This document shows, one piece after another, positions 1 through 8,064 of a stretch of 28,520 nucleotides of DNA. Within the stretch, counting starts at the first letter, position 1. Each line of letters begins with the position of its first letter. The notes under the pieces were generated by a model. It had not been told where the DNA came from. It saw only the letters and a program-made list of their open reading frames with translations, and did no database searches. This stretch comes from a virus, in IMG/VR virus record IMGVR_UViG_3300046777_003459, positions 1 through 28,520 of that record, one strand, 5' to 3'. A program made the position numbers and the translations under genes.

Positions 1-55
1 GAGGTGAAGAGATTCCTTTCCCTCGCGGAACTGGATCATCAAAAACGGAACGGGC

Positions 56-307
56 GCATAGGTGCGGAGGTCGTCGCCTTTAAATCACGACGCACCCCAT
101 ACCCATAATCACAAAAGCCGAAAGACCTATGCTACCTATGCCACCTATGCAGGAGGAATTGCGAAACGATGGAAACCAAAACTTTGCGAAAGGGTGAAAA
201 AGCGGGGGTGCTGCGTAGGTGCATAGGTCGCGTGCAATTCGGATGGAACGGGTCGGGGTGAAGTGTGCTGAGGCGCGGAACATCGCCGACCTGTGCATGA
301 CCTATGC
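56..307. repeat. Cluster of ACCTATGC iteron-like repeats
   Basis: The 8-mer ACCTATGC (or its complement GCATAGGT) occurs exactly at 56-63, 125-132, 134-141, 143-150, 221-228 and 300-307. One-mismatch copies lie at 64-71, 213-220 and 289-296. Three copies are direct repeats with a 9-bp period (125, 134, 143); two pairs abut with an 8-bp period. Fewer than one copy is expected by chance in 250 bp. The position just beyond the primase-helicase operon suggests an origin or a regulator-binding array. No DnaA box was recognised. Confidence 0.75.
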
Positions 308-339
308 AAAAGAAAAAGCCCGGCGAGTTGCCGGGCTTT
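307..339 (-). terminator. Intrinsic terminator after the helicase gene
   Basis: A perfect 10-bp stem (AAAGCCCGGC at 315-324 with GCCGGGCTTT at 330-339, loop GAGTT) lies 3 nt past the helicase stop codon. On the minus strand it is followed by a T-rich run (TTTTTCTTTT). This is a textbook Rho-independent terminator closing the primase-helicase transcript. It could work weakly for plus-strand transcription as well. Confidence 0.9.
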
Positions 340-342
340 CTA

Positions 343-1968
343 TTACTCGAGCACCTCGAGCGTGTAGAGCCGCTGTCGGTTCTTACCGCTCTGCCCCCAC
401 CGCACCACGCGGCCCGAAGGCAATCGGAACTTCTTGCCGCCATACTGCTCGGCCAGGAGCCTGCCGAACTTCGAGTTCGCCCGAGCCGTGAGCACAAAGC
501 GGCGCGGCCCATCTTTACCCTCCCTCTCCTCCTTGCCCTCCAGCATCCATGTGAACGCATTCACCTCGATGGCCGCCTCGACCACATCTTGGAAACTAAA
601 CTCATCCGAGTCATCCAGCCCCTTAGCCAAGTGAGCCACCAGTGCCGTCATGTCCGCGAGCTCCGAGTTGCCCGACTCCTCCACCGGCAGTGGCTCCATC
701 GGATCACCGAAGCCAGCGTGCTTCACCATTCCACCAAAGACCGCGCACCACGGTTCATACCCCCGCACGATCCGGTCTGGATGCGGCCGCCCAGCCTCAT
801 CCCACGAGCGAACGATCGCCCACAGGCACGCCAGCAACTGCGACCGCACCTCCGGCTTCTCGAGCCACTCATCAGAGAAAACCTTCTCGATCTTCCGCGC
901 CTGCGGATCCGCCTCGTCCGTGATCATCCGGCAATGCAGGAAACGCCGAGCCACATCGGGCGTGACCTCGAGGTTGTTGCCGGTCAGGAACACCGTGGCG
1001 ATCTTAGGAACCGCAAATTTGCTCTGTGTATTCATGCGCCGCCCCGTCCAGGTCGAAGCCGTTAGGAACGCATTAAGAGTCGGGGATTTCAAAAACCCAT
1101 TGCAGTCATCAAAGAGAATGTAAGGCGATCCCGCCAGCGACTCAGTATCTAGGATCTTGCGCCAATCCTCCTGGCACTCCGGCAGCGGCTGCACATCGCA
1201 TGTCCCGATCGCCGTGATGATCGCCGCCTGAGCCAGCAGGGTCTTGCCCGAGCCCACCGAGTTCGAGCTAAACATAAAATTCAACCGCCGAGCCGTCGGC
1301 CTCAGCAGCGCCGCCGCAAACATCGAGAGCATCCCCGAGATCACGATCGCCTCATTGCGCGACTGCCCATCCGCCTTGCGATCGCCAAAAGGAAACTCAC
1401 TCAGCAAATTCTTCAGCACCGTGCGCGCCTCATCCAGCGGCATATCCTGGGCAAACTCCACCCCCGAGTTTTGCGTGTAAGTCTGCGACTCCGCATCGTA
1501 TCCATAAGGCAGCAACTCAATCCGCCCATCCCGCCGCCGCACCGGCTGACGCACCGTCGCCACCCGCATCAACTCCCGCTGCCGAGAGAGAAACTGATCA
1601 CTCTCTAGGATCGTCGCCGCCGCCTCCACCGTGATCGTCTGCGGCTTCTTCTCGAAAACATTGGGCTTCGGCATCTCCCACTTAAAAGTCACCAAGTGCT
1701 CCTCGCAGTAAGTCCGGAAACGCCGAGCCGACATCTCCACCAGCCTGCCCTCCGGCGATATCGTCATCGCCGACCGCTGCCGCACAAAGACCCCATTCTG
1801 GCAAAGCACCCCGCCGATCTCCCGCGCCATCGTCGAGATCACCGGCACGATCTGCACCATCGGCATCTCCGGATTAATCTCCGTCGACGCCGCAGGCGCA
1901 TCCTCCCGATGAGGCACGATTCCATATTCCGCCAGCTTCGAGCTGACCACATCACCAATCTCACTCAT
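343..1968 (-). CDS. Phage replicative AAA+ helicase (primase-helicase partner)
   Basis: A 541-aa protein with a P-loop NTPase core in its middle. It has a Walker A-like SSNSVGSGKT at about residues 234-243, Walker B ILFDD at 284-288, a sensor-1-like TGNN at 329-332 and a possible arginine finger ARR at 340-342. The first Walker A glycine is replaced, while GSGKT is intact. The likely role is unwinding DNA at the phage origin, partnered with the primase encoded 23 nt upstream. I start it at ATG 1968, preceded by a purine-only A-rich leader. The frame is open back to 2052, but that would overlap the primase. A terminator follows directly. The helicase superfamily assignment is inference from motifs only. 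Confidence 0.8.
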   Translation of the reverse strand: MSEIGDVVSSKLAEYGIVPHREDAPAASTEINPEMPMVQIVPVISTMAREIGGVLCQNGVFVRQRSAMTISPEGRLVEMSARRFRTYCEEHLVTFKWEMPKPNVFEKKPQTITVEAAATILESDQFLSRQRELMRVATVRQPVRRRDGRIELLPYGYDAESQTYTQNSGVEFAQDMPLDEARTVLKNLLSEFPFGDRKADGQSRNEAIVISGMLSMFAAALLRPTARRLNFMFSSNSVGSGKTLLAQAAIITAIGTCDVQPLPECQEDWRKILDTESLAGSPYILFDDCNGFLKSPTLNAFLTASTWTGRRMNTQSKFAVPKIATVFLTGNNLEVTPDVARRFLHCRMITDEADPQARKIEKVFSDEWLEKPEVRSQLLACLWAIVRSWDEAGRPHPDRIVRGYEPWCAVFGGMVKHAGFGDPMEPLPVEESGNSELADMTALVAHLAKGLDDSDEFSFQDVVEAAIEVNAFTWMLEGKEEREGKDGPRRFVLTARANSKFGRLLAEQYGGKKFRLPSGRVVRWGQSGKNRQRLYTLEVLE

Positions 1969-1991
1969 TGATTTTTTTCTTTCTTGTTTTT

Positions 1992-3158
1992 TTAGGCCGA
2001 GGAAACCCCCGCCAAATTCGATTCCAACTCTTCCGCCGCGCTGTTCAGCCACGCGTCAAAACGCCCATAGTGGCGACACCCAGCCAGCACACGCGGCAAC
2101 TCCCCGCGCGGGAAACCCATCCCCGCCACCCGCACGCACTCACCCCGCCAAAAACTCAATACATCCCGCCGCGCAAACATCTCCGCGATCGTCAAAGCCG
2201 GTGCCGACGGCGCAAAATAAAGCAGCTTCTGCTCCTTCTCCCCCCTCCAGCACGCAGGCAGCCGCGTCAGCCGCACCGCAGACAGCGCACCAGGATCCGC
2301 CCCCACCGTCACCAGCCCCAAGATCCTCTTCTTCTGCTCATCCCAATCGCGCTTAGTCTTTGCGTCCACCCGCACCAGCGCATGCACCGAGCGCCCCCCG
2401 CTCGTCGTAATCGCCGAAATCCTCGGCACCGTCCGCGCCAGAGCCGCCAGCCACAGCCGCACCGGAGCCTCATCCGACTCCAGCACCATCCAGCGCCACG
2501 CCAGCACCGACTCCTCCGACCTTCTCGACATCTTCCCCAGGCGAGGATTCGGCCGCGACTTCCCATCCACCGGCTGAGCCAGAAACCAAATCCCATCCCG
2601 GCCGCGAGTCGGAATCGACTCCGTAGGCCACACCGCCTGCCCCTGGCTTTTGTATTCCGAAAAAACCAGCACCCGCTCCCCCGCTTGCGCATTATAGAGA
2701 CGCGAGAGAAAATCCGTCGCCGACACCCCCGCCGGATCCACCTCAGAGCGATTAGCCAGCCAAGGCAGATCCACCACCTCAGCCAACTCCCCCGCGATCT
2801 TCTTCAACCGCTCCGGCTCATACACCAGTTTCGGACGAGGCTTCTGCGGCACAAACTCCCGCCGCTCAGCCCCGCCACCGCTCGACCTCTCCCCATCCCG
2901 CAGCAAATACCCCGACTCCCCCGGCCCATTCACCGCCGAGTTAATCTTGTGAATCAACTCCCCCTCAGTCCACCGCTCCGCATTGCCAGCATTCCACTCA
3001 TGCAGCAACCCCAACGCCTCCGCTGCGCCAAGCTCGAACCCCTTCACCAACGCCTTCGCGCAAAGAAGCGTGTGCGTATGCCCACCAGCCCCCGAAATCG
3101 CAGGCCCCATCTTCTGCAAATACCTCCGCGCCCGATCCGGAATAGAAACCCTATCCAT
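1992..3158 (-). CDS. Phage DNA primase, archaeo-eukaryotic primase-like
   Basis: A 388-aa protein. The N-terminus (residues 10-75: RARRYLQKM, SGAGGHTHT, ERWTEGELIHKI) resembles the conserved leading domain of many environmental phage primases. The middle carries primase-polymerase-like motifs: LESDE (226-230), TSGGRSVHALV (252-262, an SxH-type motif) and VRLTRLPACWR (295-305). It should synthesise primers for phage replication together with the helicase just downstream. A good Shine-Dalgarno sequence, GGAGGGGG, precedes ATG 3158. Its start lies 64 nt from the attachment core, so its upstream region is remodelled on integration. Family membership is judged by motif spacing. Confidence 0.75.
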   Translation of the reverse strand: MDRVSIPDRARRYLQKMGPAISGAGGHTHTLLCAKALVKGFELGAAEALGLLHEWNAGNAERWTEGELIHKINSAVNGPGESGYLLRDGERSSGGGAERREFVPQKPRPKLVYEPERLKKIAGELAEVVDLPWLANRSEVDPAGVSATDFLSRLYNAQAGERVLVFSEYKSQGQAVWPTESIPTRGRDGIWFLAQPVDGKSRPNPRLGKMSRRSEESVLAWRWMVLESDEAPVRLWLAALARTVPRISAITTSGGRSVHALVRVDAKTKRDWDEQKKRILGLVTVGADPGALSAVRLTRLPACWRGEKEQKLLYFAPSAPALTIAEMFARRDVLSFWRGECVRVAGMGFPRGELPRVLAGCRHYGRFDAWLNSAAEELESNLAGVSSA

Positions 3159-3172
3159 TCGCCCCCTCCAAA

Positions 3173-3335
3173 ATGTGACGGTGCGACAAGAAAAGTGTTA
3201 CAACACTACGAAGAAAGCTATTTTGACACGGTAGGGGCCAGAGGTTCGAACCCTCTACCGCGCACCACTCCACAAGCCCATCTCCCCTCATATCGGCCCA
3301 AATCCGATTTGCTAGTGTTACAGTAAAGTGTGACA
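3173..3335 (+). other. attP: phage attachment site with arm-type repeats
   Basis: The core is a tRNA 3' end (3223-3267). On the left are ATGTGACG (3173-3180) and AGTGTTACA (3194-3202). On the right are AGTGTTACA (3314-3322) and AGTGTGACA (3327-3335). Repeats on both sides of a tRNA core, beside an integrase starting at 3346, match a complete attP with P and P' arm-type integrase sites. The left AGTGTTACA is also part of a perfect palindrome, AGTGTTACAACACT (3194-3207), which could double as an operator in the primase leader. No IHF site was identified. Confidence 0.8.
3223..3267 (+). pseudogene. tRNA-Val(GAC) 3' fragment, integration core
   Basis: Reads as the 3' 45 nt of a tRNA: anticodon loop TTGACAC (3223-3229), stem GGTAG, variable loop GGGCC, T-arm AGAGG/TTCGAAC/CCTCT (3240-3256), acceptor strand ACCGCGC, discriminator A and encoded CCA (3265-3267). 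The 5' half (acceptor GCGCGGT and D-arm) is absent, so it is not a functional tRNA. Only an imperfect CTATT lies opposite the anticodon stem. Phages that integrate into tRNA genes carry such a 3' end to rebuild the host gene. GAC gives a normal 5-nt variable loop, which is why I prefer Val. Confidence 0.85.
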
Positions 3336-3345
3336 GTCTCCCCCG

Positions 3346-4458
3346 ATGCAGGTTCGCGGACTCTACAAGCGAGGCGAGGTTTATTGGTTTAGCCGCCAGA
3401 TTCATGGCAAGCGAGCCTTCGTATCCCTTGAGACCGGGGACCTCGAGGAGGCCATCCGCCGCCGGCGCGAGATCCTTGAGGCCGGGGTCCTGCCCGATGG
3501 CGAGGCGCTGCACCACCTGGTCGAGCGGTATGTCGCCGCCTGCCGCGCTTCTGGCAAATGGAGCCTCGCCAGTGCCGATTCCAAGCTCCCCGTCCTCCGC
3601 TGCTGGGCCGCCGACTTCGGCGATGTCACACCCGAGAGTGTGACAACCGACCAGCTCCGCGCCTGGCACGACCGCCGAGCACGAGCCACCAGCCCCTCCA
3701 CCGCTTACGGGAATCTCATGCTCCTGCGCGGTTTTTTTAATTGGTGCCACCTCGAGGCCCGCCTCACTTCGCGCAACCCCGCCGAGCCACTCACCGCACG
3801 GCGGAATCCCGCCCGCGTCCCGCAGCCGAAGTCCGCCGCCCGCGCCGACTTTTGCACCCCCGAGCTCCGCGACCACCTCCTCGCCGCCTGCCCCCGCGAC
3901 GATCTCCGCTTCATCCTCTACTGCGGCTTCCACGCCGGTCTGCGGAAGGCCGAGATCATCGAGGCCCGCGCCGAGTGGTTCGATCTCCACGCCGGTCTGC
4001 TCCACCTCCGCAAGCACTCCGGCATCACCTTCAAAGACTCCGAGGAGCGCACCATCCCCCTCACGCAGGAATTCCGCGACTGGATGAAAAAAAACGGCCC
4101 GCGCACAGGCTACATCTTGGCCCCGTGGAAGGAGCAGCGAGGCCGCAGCCTCTACCGCTACGACTTCGAGCGCTTCTACTCCGACTTTATGACCGCCCAG
4201 GGCTGCCGCTGGCTCACGCCACACATCATGCGGCACACCTTCGCCAGCCTGCTCGCCAGCGCTGGCGTGAGCATTTTCAAGATCGCCACATGGCTCGGCG
4301 ACGAGGTGAGAGTGGTGGAAAAACATTACGCCAAGCTCCTGCCTAAGGATTCCGAGATTGAGCGAGCTTTTGGCCCGAGGCCGACCGCAGAGCCGACACC
4401 CCTTCTTCGCACACCCGCTTCCACGCCGAGAGGCAGGCATCGTAGTCGAACAGCGTAA
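3346..4458 (+). CDS. Tyrosine-family site-specific integrase
   Basis: A 370-aa tyrosine recombinase that should integrate the phage at a tRNA-Val gene and, with an excisionase, reverse this. The catalytic set is visible: Arg200 (GLRKAEI), His293 and Arg296 (HIMRHTFAS), Trp316 at the third His/Trp position (TWLGDE) and nucleophile Tyr328 (EKHYAKL). Residues 55-150 form the core-binding, SAM-like helical domain, and the N-terminus probably reads the arm-type repeats just upstream. It starts 10 nt after the last repeat with no Shine-Dalgarno. Its last 116 nt overlap the antisense excisionase-like gene. An 8-bp inverted repeat, TGTCACAC/GTGTGACA, lies inside the gene at 3624-3645. Confidence 0.93.
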   Translation: MQVRGLYKRGEVYWFSRQIHGKRAFVSLETGDLEEAIRRRREILEAGVLPDGEALHHLVERYVAACRASGKWSLASADSKLPVLRCWAADFGDVTPESVTTDQLRAWHDRRARATSPSTAYGNLMLLRGFFNWCHLEARLTSRNPAEPLTARRNPARVPQPKSAARADFCTPELRDHLLAACPRDDLRFILYCGFHAGLRKAEIIEARAEWFDLHAGLLHLRKHSGITFKDSEERTIPLTQEFRDWMKKNGPRTGYILAPWKEQRGRSLYRYDFERFYSDFMTAQGCRWLTPHIMRHTFASLLASAGVSIFKIATWLGDEVRVVEKHYAKLLPKDSEIERAFGPRPTAEPTPLLRTPASTPRGRHRSRTA

Positions 4459-4597
4459 GCCGATTCCCGCACACCACCGGCTCTAGCCAACCCGCCGAGC
4501 GCATCATTTTCAGCATCGCCTCGCCCCCCACGATCCGCTCCGCGTCCTCGATCGTCGCCGCACCCCGCCGCTCTTGCAGCATCACCGAGTATCTCAT
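4343..4597 (-). CDS. Excisionase-like small DNA-binding protein
   Basis: An 84-aa basic protein with a compact winged-helix or MerR-like segment: RIVGGEAMLKMMRSAGWLEPVV (about residues 21-42), then NRLTLFDYDACLSAWKR. A helix, a short turn and a strand ending in a Phe/Tyr followed by another helix is the general shape of phage excisionases. It is the last gene of the early minus-strand operon. Its ATG overlaps the previous stop (ATGA), and its 3' third is antisense to the end of the integrase. That position supports an Xis role, but sequence alone cannot exclude another DNA-binding function. Confidence 0.5.
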   Translation of the reverse strand: MRYSVMLQERRGAATIEDAERIVGGEAMLKMMRSAGWLEPVVCGNRLTLFDYDACLSAWKRVCEEGVSALRSASGQKLAQSRNP

Positions 4598-5229
4598 TCC
4601 CCCCCCCCAATAAGTTTTGCCTTAAGGCTGGCAGGGCAAAATGACCAATACTTTACCGGATAACTAAATTTTTCCCCAGAATACAATCGCCAGACCTTGC
4701 CATCAAAATGCCCAGAAACGGTCAATGGCGGACATTCTACAGCCATTAGCACAAGCAGACCTGGTGGCGGCGTTTGTGATTCGGCTGTTATAAAACGGAG
4801 CGTAACAGTCTTTAGTTTTGTAACTGGTAAGCCTACCCACTTGCAAACCTCAGCATGTCTCTTCAAACCATATTTTGGAAAGACATTAGGCCTGATAGCA
4901 CCGGAAAAAACAGCCTGCTTTGCCTGAGCTTTTGTCTTGATTCCAAGATTGCTCAACACATTCCTTATAAATGGGGTATTAAGGTTTTTTGGCAGTATGG
5001 CTTCTAATTCATTTTTCGGAGGGGTAGCGACCAATCCCAACTGCTGTAAAAGCAAAAGGTTTTTTTTGCCAATGCCCACATACTTTAATACTTGGCTTGG
5101 CTGGAGAGGGCATGGAGTGTGCTCGTAATGCTTGCCGATCCTCTCGACATGCTCCCGCAACTTTATTCCTCCCAGTTTTTCTGCAGAATCCAAAGCCTCT
5201 GCAGCAGCTTCTCTCATCATTTTTCTCAT
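4594..5229 (-). CDS. Unknown protein, DUF551-like C-terminus, AT-rich gene
   Basis: A 211-aa protein I do not recognise as a whole. The N-terminal half is helical and lysine-rich. The C-terminus (LLVLMAVECPP, HFDGKVWRLYSGEK, VKYWSFCP) recalls the short DUF551 pattern of an editable value followed by a W-x-F-x-P ending, and the preceding gene ends in a similar way. I start it at ATG 5229, which overlaps the stop of the 50-aa gene upstream. The frame is open back to 5385, but that extension only translates the intergenic repeat. GC drops to about 45% here, suggesting recent acquisition. A run of eight G lies just before its stop. Confidence 0.6.
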   Translation of the reverse strand: MRKMMREAAAEALDSAEKLGGIKLREHVERIGKHYEHTPCPLQPSQVLKYVGIGKKNLLLLQQLGLVATPPKNELEAILPKNLNTPFIRNVLSNLGIKTKAQAKQAVFSGAIRPNVFPKYGLKRHAEVCKWVGLPVTKLKTVTLRFITAESQTPPPGLLVLMAVECPPLTVSGHFDGKVWRLYSGEKFSYPVKYWSFCPASLKAKLIGGGE

Positions 5230-5378
5230 TCCCCCGCCTCCTCGAGCATCTTCCGGTAATCCCGCAGCACCTCCTCGCGGAAATCTCCCCCATCCGCGAT
5301 GCACGCCAAGGCCAGCCGCGCCGCGATCTCCCGCCACTTCTCCTCCGTGCTCTCCGTGTCCTCTGTGGTTAATCCCAT
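5226..5378 (-). CDS. Small 50-aa protein with repeat-derived N-terminus
   Basis: ATG 5378 opens a 50-residue frame ending in TGA at 5226-5228, with an ATGA overlap to the next gene and a 3-nt gap after the previous one. The first 13 codons (MGLTTEDTESTEE) are a translation of the CACAGAG/CACGGAG intergenic repeat. The rest (WREIAARLALACIADGGDF, REEVLRDYRKMLEEAG) is a plausible amphipathic helical protein. The tight junctions on both sides argue for a real gene. The function is unknown. Confidence 0.6.
   Translation of the reverse strand: MGLTTEDTESTEEKWREIAARLALACIADGGDFREEVLRDYRKMLEEAGE
5337..5373 (-). repeat. Single arm of CACGGAG/CACAGAG intergenic repeat
   Basis: On the minus strand this reads as a run of ACCACAGAG, GACACGGAG, AGCACGGAG units, the same family as the larger palindromic copy near 18.5 kb. 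Here it is a single arm and lies inside the start of a small gene. This repeat type is widely dispersed between genes in several environmental bacterial phyla and gives characteristic spurious peptides such as TTEDTE or HRGHGEHGG. Confidence 0.75.
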
Positions 5379-5381
5379 AGA

Positions 5382-5591
5382 TCAATCCTCCGGAGGCTCA
5401 GGGAAGGGAGCCCAATGCAGCACCGACACATCGATCCGGTCCGCCGAGACATACCGCCACGCCTTCCCATCGCGGAATCCCGTCCACACTTCCCCATCCT
5501 CGAGGTGCAGCAGCACCGCCTGGTCATCGTCCGGCAATTCCTCCTTCGGCGTCCGCCAAAAGACCTCGCTGAAAACCTTCGGCCCGCTCAT
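5382..5591 (-). CDS. DUF551-like small protein
   Basis: A 69-aa protein. The middle and end (VLLHLEDGEVWTGFRDGKAW, YVSADRI, VLHWAPFPEPP) match the general DUF551 pattern seen in many phage early genes, whose function is unknown. Start at ATG 5591 overlaps the preceding stop (ATGA). An upstream in-frame start at 5609 would overlap further and is less likely. It belongs to the early operon. Confidence 0.7.
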   Translation of the reverse strand: MSGPKVFSEVFWRTPKEELPDDDQAVLLHLEDGEVWTGFRDGKAWRYVSADRIDVSVLHWAPFPEPPED

Positions 5592-5842
5592 TTCGCCCCT
5601 CCAAAGCAAACTTCTTCAAATTGCGCGGCGAAGTGCGTGTTGAGCTTCCAGTTGCTGATAAACCGACAGGCGCAACTGACCATGTAGGTTTTCGGTAAAC
5701 TCTTTATCGGGAGCAAATCATACTTGGCCCGCTTCGCGGCCGCCTTGTCGGCCTCATCTTCCAGGAGATAAATTTTGTGGCACCCATCGTAGGCGAAATG
5801 CGTGGCCGCGACCGGCTTTTCGTTAATCGTTATTTTCTTCAC
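5588..5842 (-). CDS. Hypothetical early phage protein
   Basis: An 84-aa protein with no family I recognise. It starts with GTG at 5842, overlapping the previous stop, and has a strong Shine-Dalgarno (AGGAGGAGGT) four bases upstream. It contains three cysteines towards the C-terminus (SCACRF and EEVC) and an acidic-to-basic helical stretch (EDEADKAAAKRAK). The operon context suggests an early accessory role. Confidence 0.6.
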   Translation of the reverse strand: MKKITINEKPVAATHFAYDGCHKIYLLEDEADKAAAKRAKYDLLPIKSLPKTYMVSCACRFISNWKLNTHFAAQFEEVCFGGAK

Positions 5843-6495
5843 TTACCTCCTCCTATCTCGATAAGGCGCGCAGATACGCGCCGGTCGAACTCCGCAATCA
5901 CAGATGTAAGTCCCTTAACCTTGCTCAACTTGTGCGGCTCCCAATTTTCAAATATTCCATCGTCAAGCACACGGGAATGCCATCGCAAGAAATCCATGTG
6001 GATCGCCTCGAGGGTGAGCACCCCCGAGCCCGCCGAGCCCGTCGGCGCGCTGCCTGCGGTCTCCCGCACGATCTCCCCCGCCTTAATCGATTTTTGCAGC
6101 TCCACCGGAGAGAGGTTTTCCTCCCGCGCCTTTTCCAGCCAAACCTGGGCATCGGTCGAGTTCTCGCAGAGCTTCGCCGCCACGAAGGCATGGGCATCGC
6201 TCGGAGCCGACGGGTGCACCCCATCGAGCTTTTCCAGAGCCTCCGCCGCGCGCAGATCCTTGAATTCAAACTCCAACTGCCGCTCGGCCTCGGCCACCAC
6301 CTCGTCGCCGAAGTGCCGCCGCCCCTCCATCCGCCAATCCGCCATCCAGCGCAGGCTCGAGCCCCGCGCCGCGTGCACATACCGCCCGATCTGCTCCCAT
6401 TCGGCTTGAGTCGGGGTGCGGGTAAAAACCAGCGCCCCTCGGGAAAAGGTGCAAAGCCCCTCGGGCAAGGTGAGTTCTAGGTTTTGTTTGTTCAT
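5839..6495 (-). CDS. Early phage protein of unknown function, helical
   Basis: A 218-aa protein. Residues about 25-60 (PTQAEWEQIGRYV, WMADWRMEGRRHFGDE) and 130-150 (ENLSPVELQKSIKAGE) follow a pattern I associate with phage and plasmid proteins that begin with an L-T-P-x-x-W segment and include a basic helical stretch. I have no firm function. It may be a DNA-binding or replication accessory protein. ATG 6495 follows directly after the TAA of the upstream gene, so translation is probably coupled. It is the largest early-operon gene. Confidence 0.55.
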   Translation of the reverse strand: MNKQNLELTLPEGLCTFSRGALVFTRTPTQAEWEQIGRYVHAARGSSLRWMADWRMEGRRHFGDEVVAEAERQLEFEFKDLRAAEALEKLDGVHPSAPSDAHAFVAAKLCENSTDAQVWLEKAREENLSPVELQKSIKAGEIVRETAGSAPTGSAGSGVLTLEAIHMDFLRWHSRVLDDGIFENWEPHKLSKVKGLTSVIAEFDRRVSARLIEIGGGK

Positions 6496-6936
6496 TTAGT
6501 CTTTCCTTTTGCTCCAGGCTTCTTTTTGTGCTTCGGCAAAGACGGCCCTGGTGCGCTCCGCTTTCCGAAATTTGAAAACACCGAGTTTGATCTTGTCGGC
6601 CCAGTCGGTCGTGTAGTGGCTGATGAGCGCGCGGGTGCAGCCGATCTGGCGCGCCACCTCGGCTTGGCTGTGGATGGCATTCGCCTGGTCGAGACCGGCC
6701 GCGAAGATCAGCCCGTAGACTCGGGCGCGGAGGTTTTTACAGGGGCGGCAGAATTCCGAGAGCACGCGGGCGAGGATTTGGCACACTTCCCAATCCACGC
6801 TCTCCGCCAGGGCCGCGTCCTTATACTCCTTGATGCGCCGCGCGAGGGCTGGGCCTACACCCATTTCCTCGCAGATGAGATCCACTTCGCTGTCCACCTC
6901 GGAGAAATCGTCGTAGTAGTGGGGCTCGCGGATCAT
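6496..6936 (-). CDS. Helix-turn-helix regulator of the early operon
   Basis: A 146-aa protein with a clear helix-turn-helix at about residues 90-115: SQAEVARQIGCTRALISHY, the pattern of sigma-factor-like and repressor recognition helices. The N-terminus is acidic. The middle has a CRPC pair. It probably binds phage DNA, as a regulator or replication initiator. ATG 6936 overlaps the preceding stop (ATGA). Which sites it recognises cannot be read from the sequence. Confidence 0.6.
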   Translation of the reverse strand: MIREPHYYDDFSEVDSEVDLICEEMGVGPALARRIKEYKDAALAESVDWEVCQILARVLSEFCRPCKNLRARVYGLIFAAGLDQANAIHSQAEVARQIGCTRALISHYTTDWADKIKLGVFKFRKAERTRAVFAEAQKEAWSKRKD

Positions 6937-7136
6937 AAAGAGGCCAAATGGGCGCGCAGTTCGGCAAATCCTCGTTCGATCTCCTGATCGGTGGCCCGAG
7001 GGTTTGGAAGCGGGGCCGGGCGGCGACGGCGAGGCTGCCGAGGCTTTTGGGTGGGGGTGGAAAGGCGGCGCGCCTCCTCGAGCAGCGCGGTAGCCGTGGC
7101 GAGGAGTTGCTGAATAGTATCGTTTTTTGATTTCAT
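6933..7136 (-). CDS. Small basic early protein
   Basis: A 67-aa protein with an N-terminal helix (TIQQLLATATALLEEARR), a proline/arginine-rich linker (KPRQPRRRRPAPLPNPR) and a C-terminal helix (QEIERGFAELRAHL). No family is recognised. The basic linker suggests nucleic-acid contact. It starts at 7136 with an ATGA overlap to the preceding gene and overlaps the next one in the same way. Confidence 0.6.
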   Translation of the reverse strand: MKSKNDTIQQLLATATALLEEARRLSTPTQKPRQPRRRRPAPLPNPRATDQEIERGFAELRAHLASL

Positions 7137-7324
7137 TGTTTCCCTTCCATTTTCTTGGCCACGCTATTCATTAGGATTTCCGCCGAGAGCGTGTGTGGGA
7201 AACACTCGCCGCACACCGGCCCCAAATTGCGGGCATAAAGCTGGGAGGTATTGTTCTCCCCATATTTTTCGCACATCAGGCACAGGCAGCCCTGCTGCTC
7301 CTCGGTGAGGTCGATTTTATTCAT
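7133..7324 (-). CDS. Small zinc-ribbon-like early protein
   Basis: A 63-aa protein with cysteines at 13, 15, 18, 38 and 41 (CLCLMC and VCGEC) and a following histidine (FPH). The two CxxC knuckles, separated by about 20 residues, suggest a zinc ribbon. It overlaps the preceding gene by 8 nt and the following one by 4 nt. The function is unknown; small zinc ribbons in phage early regions often bind host proteins or nucleic acid. Confidence 0.6.
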   Translation of the reverse strand: MNKIDLTEEQQGCLCLMCEKYGENNTSQLYARNLGPVCGECFPHTLSAEILMNSVAKKMEGKQ

Positions 7325-7472
7325 TGTCGAAATCCTCCCATTCGGCCCAGCGGCGGCGGCGCTCCTGCATGTCGCGCATCCGGATATACATGTTCCGCTG
7401 GCCCGCCCAGTAGCTGGCCCAGCAGGAGCCGAGCGTGATGAGCGTGATCATGATGCCCTCCCAGCCGCTCAT
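7317..7472 (-). CDS. Small single-pass membrane protein
   Basis: 51 aa, beginning MSGWEGIMITLITLG. A hydrophobic segment (residues about 7-24) is followed by a strongly basic then acidic tail (RMRDMQERRRRWAEWEDFDNE). ATG 7472 overlaps the stop of the upstream gene (ATGA), which decides the start over an upstream in-frame start at 7571. A possible role at the host membrane is inferred only from topology. Confidence 0.6.
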   Translation of the reverse strand: MSGWEGIMITLITLGSCWASYWAGQRNMYIRMRDMQERRRRWAEWEDFDNE

Positions 7473-7651
7473 TTCCCGTCCTCCTTGCGCTCGCGGGCTT
7501 GGATCGCATCGAGAGCGCGCACCACGCGCAGCATGCGAAGCTCGTTTTTCGGATCGTTCTCCAGGGTCCAATAATCCAGCAGCGCCACGCGCACCTCGCG
7601 GGCCAACTCGCGCCAGGCCGAGGCGGATTCCATCTTCTCGGTCGTGCTCAT
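7469..7651 (-). CDS. Hypothetical helical early protein
   Basis: A 60-aa, mostly alpha-helical protein (WRELAREVRVALLDYW, ELRMLRVVRALDAIQ). No family is recognised. Both ends overlap neighbours through ATGA junctions, so it is very likely translated as part of the early operon. Confidence 0.55.
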   Translation of the reverse strand: MSTTEKMESASAWRELAREVRVALLDYWTLENDPKNELRMLRVVRALDAIQARERKEDGK

Positions 7652-7761
7652 CGGGCGAGCCTCCCCGTGAGCGCCAGCAGCAGCACCGGCACGATGATCA
7701 TTTGCAGAAAATCCATCGCGTAGCCGAGGCTCCGGAGGATCAGGTCGTAGTTCTCACTCAT
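7648..7761 (-). CDS. 37-aa membrane peptide
   Basis: Reads MSENYDLILRSLGYAMDFLQ followed by a hydrophobic stretch (MIIVPVLLLALTG) and a basic end. ATG 7761 is preceded by an A-rich leader (GAGAAAAAAA), the same style as before the helicase gene, and its TGA overlaps the next ATG. The frame extends upstream to 7902, but that part overlaps the regulator gene and looks like non-coding shadow. Confidence 0.55.
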   Translation of the reverse strand: MSENYDLILRSLGYAMDFLQMIIVPVLLLALTGRLAR

Positions 7762-7783
7762 TTTTTTTCTCGTTTTTTTGGGG

Positions 7784-7960
7784 TTAAGCGGGGGAGGAAA
7801 TTTGCTCGTTCTCGCGGGCCTTTTCGGCATCACGCGCGATGAGGAATTGGATGTAGCTCGAAAGGCTCCGATGCTCTTGTTTGCTGCGTTCGCGGGCGAC
7901 ATCGAGAAGCCAGGAAGGGATCGAAATCGATTTTTTCACAGCGGGTGTTTCGTTATTCAT
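7784..7960 (-). CDS. Ribbon-helix-helix regulator, first early gene
   Basis: A 58-aa protein with KKSISIPSWLLDVARERSKQ then SLSSYIQFLIARDAEKA: a short basic strand followed by two helices, the Arc/CopG-type ribbon-helix-helix fold. It is the first gene of the minus-strand early operon. It faces a second, related-looking regulator across a repeat-rich 104-bp gap, so it probably represses one or both promoters. I start it at ATG 7960; the in-frame upstream start at 8011 would cover the operators. Confidence 0.75.
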   Translation of the reverse strand: MNNETPAVKKSISIPSWLLDVARERSKQEHRSLSSYIQFLIARDAEKARENEQISSPA

Positions 7961-7962
7961 AA

Positions 7963-7999
7963 TTCCTACTTTTGCGCTATTGGTAGGAAGAATGCGCAA
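7963..7999. promoter_or_regulatory. Interleaved inverted repeats, operator region
   Basis: Two inverted repeats interlock just upstream of the 58-aa regulator. The first is TTCCTAC (7963-7969) with GTAGGAA (7983-7989). The second is TTGCGC (7972-7977) with GCGCAA (7994-7999). A possible minus-strand -35 (TTGACC, 8003-8008) lies beside them; its -10 is weak. RHH proteins bind short paired half-sites, so this is a good operator candidate. Confidence 0.65.
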
Positions 8000-8045
8000 T
8001 GGGGTCAACACCTAATTTTGAAAAAAGTTGTTTTTTTCTTACTTG

Positions 8046-8060
8046 GTAGGAAAGTTTCCT
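8046..8060 (+). promoter_or_regulatory. Third operator copy overlapping a ribosome-binding site
   Basis: A third GTAGGAA (8046-8052) lies within a perfect palindrome AGGAAAGTTTCCT (8048-8060), ending 4 nt before the ATG of the plus-strand regulator. It includes the only AGGA Shine-Dalgarno-like sequence, so a bound regulator could block transcription start or early elongation at this gene. Confidence 0.6.
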
Positions 8061-8064
8061 CGTT

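Follow-up and report, generated by a model that had tools for sequence, protein, structure and literature searches.

Likely coupling of replication gene expression to excision by an attachment site within the early operon of a tailed phage

The attachment site attP of the phage analysed here lies within the early operon. We propose that integration severs the replication genes from their likely promoter and that excision rejoins them, and consider such a coupling likely, with a probability of roughly 0.6. The proposal draws on gene order, the position of attP, cassette exchange among relatives, an integrated relative, a terminator past the ATPase gene and the ancestral operon context, all of which were observed. 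It further assumes that transcription reads through the antisense integrase gene and attP and that the primase gene has no other promoter.

The DNA under study (the window) comprises an entire linear IMG/VR record (28,520 bp) that lacks end repeats and whose right end truncates the portal gene. No terminase gene was found in the window, and a terminase segment was seen only in relatives. Since ∼3 kb or more separates the ATPase gene from the portal gene in relatives, the two window ends should adjoin in the full genome. The integrase as query detected no relative among viral contigs, and relatives were therefore collected with the ATPase, which yielded 21 viral relatives; a further three MAG contigs and one viral contig came from profile searches. 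Relatives occur in MAGs of Chthoniobacterales (Verrucomicrobiota), namely Chthoniobacter flavus (L023) and a Spartobacteria bin (L024). A further one, L025 (VERI01000017.1), was binned as Burkholderiaceae though its relatives are in Verrucomicrobiota, likely a binning error. A 57.5-kb viral contig (G004; L017, L079, L080, L031) was considered as a tandem copy proving circularity, and this was rejected because it holds two different related phages consecutively, with lysis genes 93.6% identical; it is either an assembly chimera or two prophages in tandem.

The early operon, the integration cassette and the replication genes

The putative early promoter PE (7980–8008, minus strand) is predicted from a −35 element TTGACC (8008–8003), a 17-nt spacer and a −10 element TACCAA (7985–7980). 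The −35 element is kept in 14 of 14 aligned sequences, the −10 element reads TACTTT in most relatives, and short repeats around PE resemble operators of ribbon-helix-helix proteins. Downstream follows the early operon (7960–4343, minus strand), a near-gapless series of overlapping small ORFs whose order is kept in relatives. It leads from a gene for an Arc-like protein (7784–7960, minus strand) via a gene for an HTH protein (6496–6936, minus strand) and g5839 to a xis-like gene (4343–4597, minus strand). The latter is convergent with the tyrosine integrase gene int (3346–4458, plus strand; PF00589, 1.2e-11; phrog_1, 4.4e-42), overlaps its 3′ end by 116 nt and is conserved. The name excisionase-like, given to it in the initial annotation, is based on size, place and conservation; its protein has no match among curated families.

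Since int is encoded on the plus strand, it is antisense to early transcription. Beyond its 5′ end lies the 45-bp attP core (3223–3267, plus strand), which corresponds to the 3′ part of tRNA-Val(GAC), anticodon loop through CCA, and is identical at 44 of 45 positions to intact tRNA-Val(GAC) genes from genomes of the host order. Direct repeats stand on either side of the core, as expected for arm-type sites, and suggest putative integrase arm sites (plus strand) at 3194–3202 (AGTGTTACA), between core and primase gene, and at 3314–3335 (AGTGTTACA at 3314 and AGTGTGACA at 3327) on the int side. With a tyrosine integrase, a tRNA-derived core and flanking arm-type repeats, the traits of a tRNA-targeting temperate phage are present. 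We rejected a junction with host DNA as an alternative to attP for the tRNA fragment, because the window holds no complete tRNA and has phage genes on both sides of the fragment; the flanking arm-type repeats and the same arrangement in the relative L009 also counter it. A related xis–int pair (int 52% identical) with a core from the tRNA-Val 3′ end was also seen in L086 (G217:C59) and L077, adjoining genes that resemble a conjugative secretion system, so that the cassette may move between phages and integrative elements.

On the other side of attP, after exactly 64 nt (3159–3222) as initially annotated, the primase gene prim starts (3158–1992, minus strand; phrog_2597 DNA primase; motif SGGRSVHALVRVD, SGGRSVH). 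The phrog_2597 match was obtained in 10 of 10 members tested. The next gene, hel (1968–343, minus strand), encodes a P-loop ATPase (Walker-type GSGKT; phrog_19930 DNA polymerase/primase, 2e-8), which, judged by its motif and its pairing with the primase gene, is probably the replicative helicase. The AlphaFold models obtained for primase and ATPase (mean pLDDT 55 and 35, respectively) did not reach a quality that would permit fold searches, and sequence searches against the PDB gave no match. An intrinsic terminator (341–313, minus strand; hairpin of −19.6 kcal/mol) closes the unit, and 15 of the 17 genomes scanned have a strong terminator 28–54 nt past hel. Just past the ATPase gene, 9-bp repeats occur at 124–150 and 288–307 (GACCTATGC and variants, some inverted); similar ATAGGT repeats follow hel in relatives, and these elements are candidate origin iterons. 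Checking of ORFs and sequence confirmed both the gene order and the coordinates that had been given before for this region.

Conserved order, cassette exchange and the integrated state

The order early genes, xis, antisense int, att, prim and hel is kept wherever an unintegrated contig includes xis, int and prim (23 of 23; the window and 22 relatives); in the circular form of all these phages the attachment site lies between the upstream promoter and the replication genes. Two integrase types occupy the slot, a tRNA-Val type in the window and L009 and a tRNA-Gln type in the rest. The window and its relative L002 are 92.8% identical across 2–3143 and 100% identical across 5225–5335 but do not match in between, which points to a cassette swap that replaced the sequence from the end of an early gene to codon ∼6 of prim. 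In a phylogeny of primases the window clusters with two phages of tRNA-Gln type (100/100), and L009, the other phage of tRNA-Val type, falls into a separate clade (98/97). Due to these different clades, tRNA-Val and tRNA-Gln cassettes must have been exchanged at least two times.

Outgroups indicate how the arrangement may have arisen. L025, with a primase 64% identical to that of the window, carries an integrase of a third type, with a core that resembles tRNA or tmRNA, further upstream between the early genes and hth–g5839–prim–hel, and its g5839 homologue and prim overlap by 4 nt. Among distant relatives (primase 34–52% identical) no int was found between prim and the gene before it, and int, where found, has an outer position. 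Six of them show a 4-nt overlap of prim with the preceding gene, including Akkermansia phage Moulinsart (ON453896), in which this is a methyltransferase gene. Moulinsart resembles the phage described here in its verrucomicrobial host, size and gene order, with primase and ATPase closing the early operon, but its int follows the ATPase gene, outside the early–primase unit. Since prim directly follows an early gene in the outgroups, we conclude that it was ancestrally a distal member of the early operon and that the internal position of attP is a derived trait.

The position of attP might also be a mere by-product of modular evolution. The cassette would then have landed in the operon and been kept via exchange through flanking homology without any regulatory role, while repression of PE would keep the lysogen silent, and it would not matter whether excision or replication came first. 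The recurrent swaps at identical borders agree with this, and distant relatives evidently cope with int at an outer position. However, attP splits early from replication genes in three integrase types and at two operon positions (in the window family and in L025) although outer positions are available, and the split is kept in every sampled unintegrated member. We therefore regard this explanation as quite unlikely and favour a coupling to excision.

That integration places the primase gene opposite the early genes and beside host DNA had been predicted and was indeed seen in one relative, which is of the tRNA-Gln type and not of the window's tRNA-Val type. Contig G001:C20 (L027; 45,159 bp) of a Chthoniobacter MAG carries this 30-kb prophage. 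At one end 21 bp copied from the 5′ end of tRNA-Gln (4742–4762) are followed by int (4863–5942, plus strand) and the early genes, and at the opposite end the primase gene (minus strand, start at ∼34.8 kb) adjoins a complete tRNA-Gln gene (34898–34971). The host flanks contain prfB at the int side and a short ORF, tRNA-Cys and leuS at the primase side. The related expectation that int follows the rebuilt tRNA holds by geometry for the window type, but in relatives of the tRNA-Gln type it is the primase end that carries the restored tRNA.

In both cassette types int comes to lie downstream of the host tRNA promoter after integration (window 3223–3346; L027:4742–4863), which reaches it via the tRNA 3′ end in one type and via the 5′ end in the other. 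A lysogen could thus express int from the host tRNA promoter, with excision removing that promoter. At the same prophage end (L027:4548–4863) the early transcript would exit into the host prfB (release factor 2) in sense direction, and induction might raise prfB expression in this host.

Transcription across attP

In the circular phage, transcription from PE would proceed leftward through the early genes, xis, antisense int and attP into the primase–ATPase genes and would end at the terminator past the ATPase gene. Integration at tRNA-Val would cut this unit at attP: PE, early genes, xis and int would remain together, while the primase–ATPase genes would be left promoterless at the other prophage end, beside host DNA. 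Upon induction PE would yield Xis first, and only excision would rejoin PE to the primase–ATPase genes, so that replication would wait for the phage to leave the chromosome. The initial annotation had described integration as an off switch for replication. The split at attP underlying this idea stands, but since a repressed PE would already silence the lysogen, replication that waits for excision is the better wording.

Motif scans bear on this link from both sides of attP. Upstream of prim no promoter above chance was detected, the best window score being equalled by 37% of control windows, although the same matrix underrates PE, which scores only average, and a primase-adjacent promoter could be missed for this reason. 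The absence of a strong promoter at 3159–3222, as noted initially, thus agrees with a scan that is weak evidence. The same caution applies to the interval from xis to attP, where a terminator would count against the link and none that was convincing or conserved was found. One weak terminator-like hairpin antisense in int (∼4110–4095) is imperfect and lacks conservation between integrase types; shuffled sequence contains such sites at about the same frequency. Imperfect stems with T tracts also occur inside antisense int in some relatives, but these are features of single genomes, and from xis to prim no terminator is conserved across integrase types.

The weakness of the matrix, which underrates PE as well, leaves room for an own promoter of the primase–ATPase genes next to attP, either not matching the sigma-70 matrix or activated by the phage (e.g. 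by the HTH protein encoded at 6496–6936). It would be kept in the prophage, and integration would change nothing. In the tRNA-Gln type the stretch of ∼119 nt between core and primase gene is conserved and, in prophages, must drive the rebuilt tRNA; this is the direction away from primase, but shows that promoters can exist there. On the other hand, no element common to both cassette types was found upstream of prim, so that two separate promoters would be required, and the 64 nt of the window are already occupied by a ribosome-binding site and an arm-type site. The overlap of the outgroup primase gene with its preceding gene also speaks against an own promoter, and a swap that reaches codon ∼6 of prim is most simply understood if primase needs none. 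We consider an own promoter unlikely and return to transcription from PE.

Over ∼1.1 kb the proposed transcript would be antisense and untranslated, which would expose it to Rho unless translation occurs in the open frame opposite int. In the window this frame (3151–4440, minus strand) is open for 429 aa, crosses attP and stops 8 nt into the primase gene. In 15 of 15 relatives tested with attP beside prim it is open for 153–468 codons through att into antisense int, and in each of them its stop overlaps the prim start in the form GTGA. The chance of each att stretch alone being open is 9–23%, and open frames are also frequent opposite other genes here. A conserved protein gene is not supported, as substitutions are spread evenly over the three codon positions. 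The frame may be a translational bridge or reflect chance or codon bias. A hidden promoter or Rho termination on antisense int could break the link between PE and primase.

Taking these features together, we tentatively suggest, with less confidence than for the coupling itself, that attP serves as a replication checkpoint in this family of tailed phages. Its cassette, which can be exchanged, would at the same time determine which host tRNA is targeted, and early transcription would have to cross the rebuilt attP, with ribosomes on the antisense frame perhaps blocking Rho, before primase is made.

Known systems and implications

The closest parallel is Tn916, in which Porf7 drives the genes for DNA processing and conjugation only once the element has excised and circularised, and which thereby shows that a logic of excising first is workable (PMC11658703). 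In both elements the main promoter and the recombination genes stand on one side of the attachment site and the replication genes on the other; the circle joins them and integration separates them. Tn916, however, is a conjugative element with rolling-circle replication (PMC11658703) and has an insulating terminator T1 near its end together with the antiterminator canT, a pair that was not found here, while in our tailed phage the joint crosses an antisense int. Integration-dependent immunity of mycobacteriophages, initially named as a parallel, is a looser one. In mycobacteriophage BPs the repressor gene contains attP, and its protein is trimmed upon integration (PMC4557955). Both phages have an attP position that lets integration itself alter phage gene function, but in the window attP lies between int and the primase gene and is not overlapped by any repressor gene, so that transcription of replication genes would be altered. 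In retroregulation of lambda int by sib, a transcript that crosses attP also fares differently in phage and prophage, but it is decay of the int mRNA that is controlled and not the replication genes. No phage precedent for replication genes expressed in dependence on excision was found in the open-access papers searched, which does not prove its absence.

If our proposal is correct, no dedicated regulator would be needed to make replication physically dependent on excision, replication of the prophage in situ would be prevented, and the principle of Tn916 would extend to tailed phages. For temperate phages in general it would predict that the place of attP alone sets which genes lose their promoter upon integration, a prediction that can be checked in genomes.
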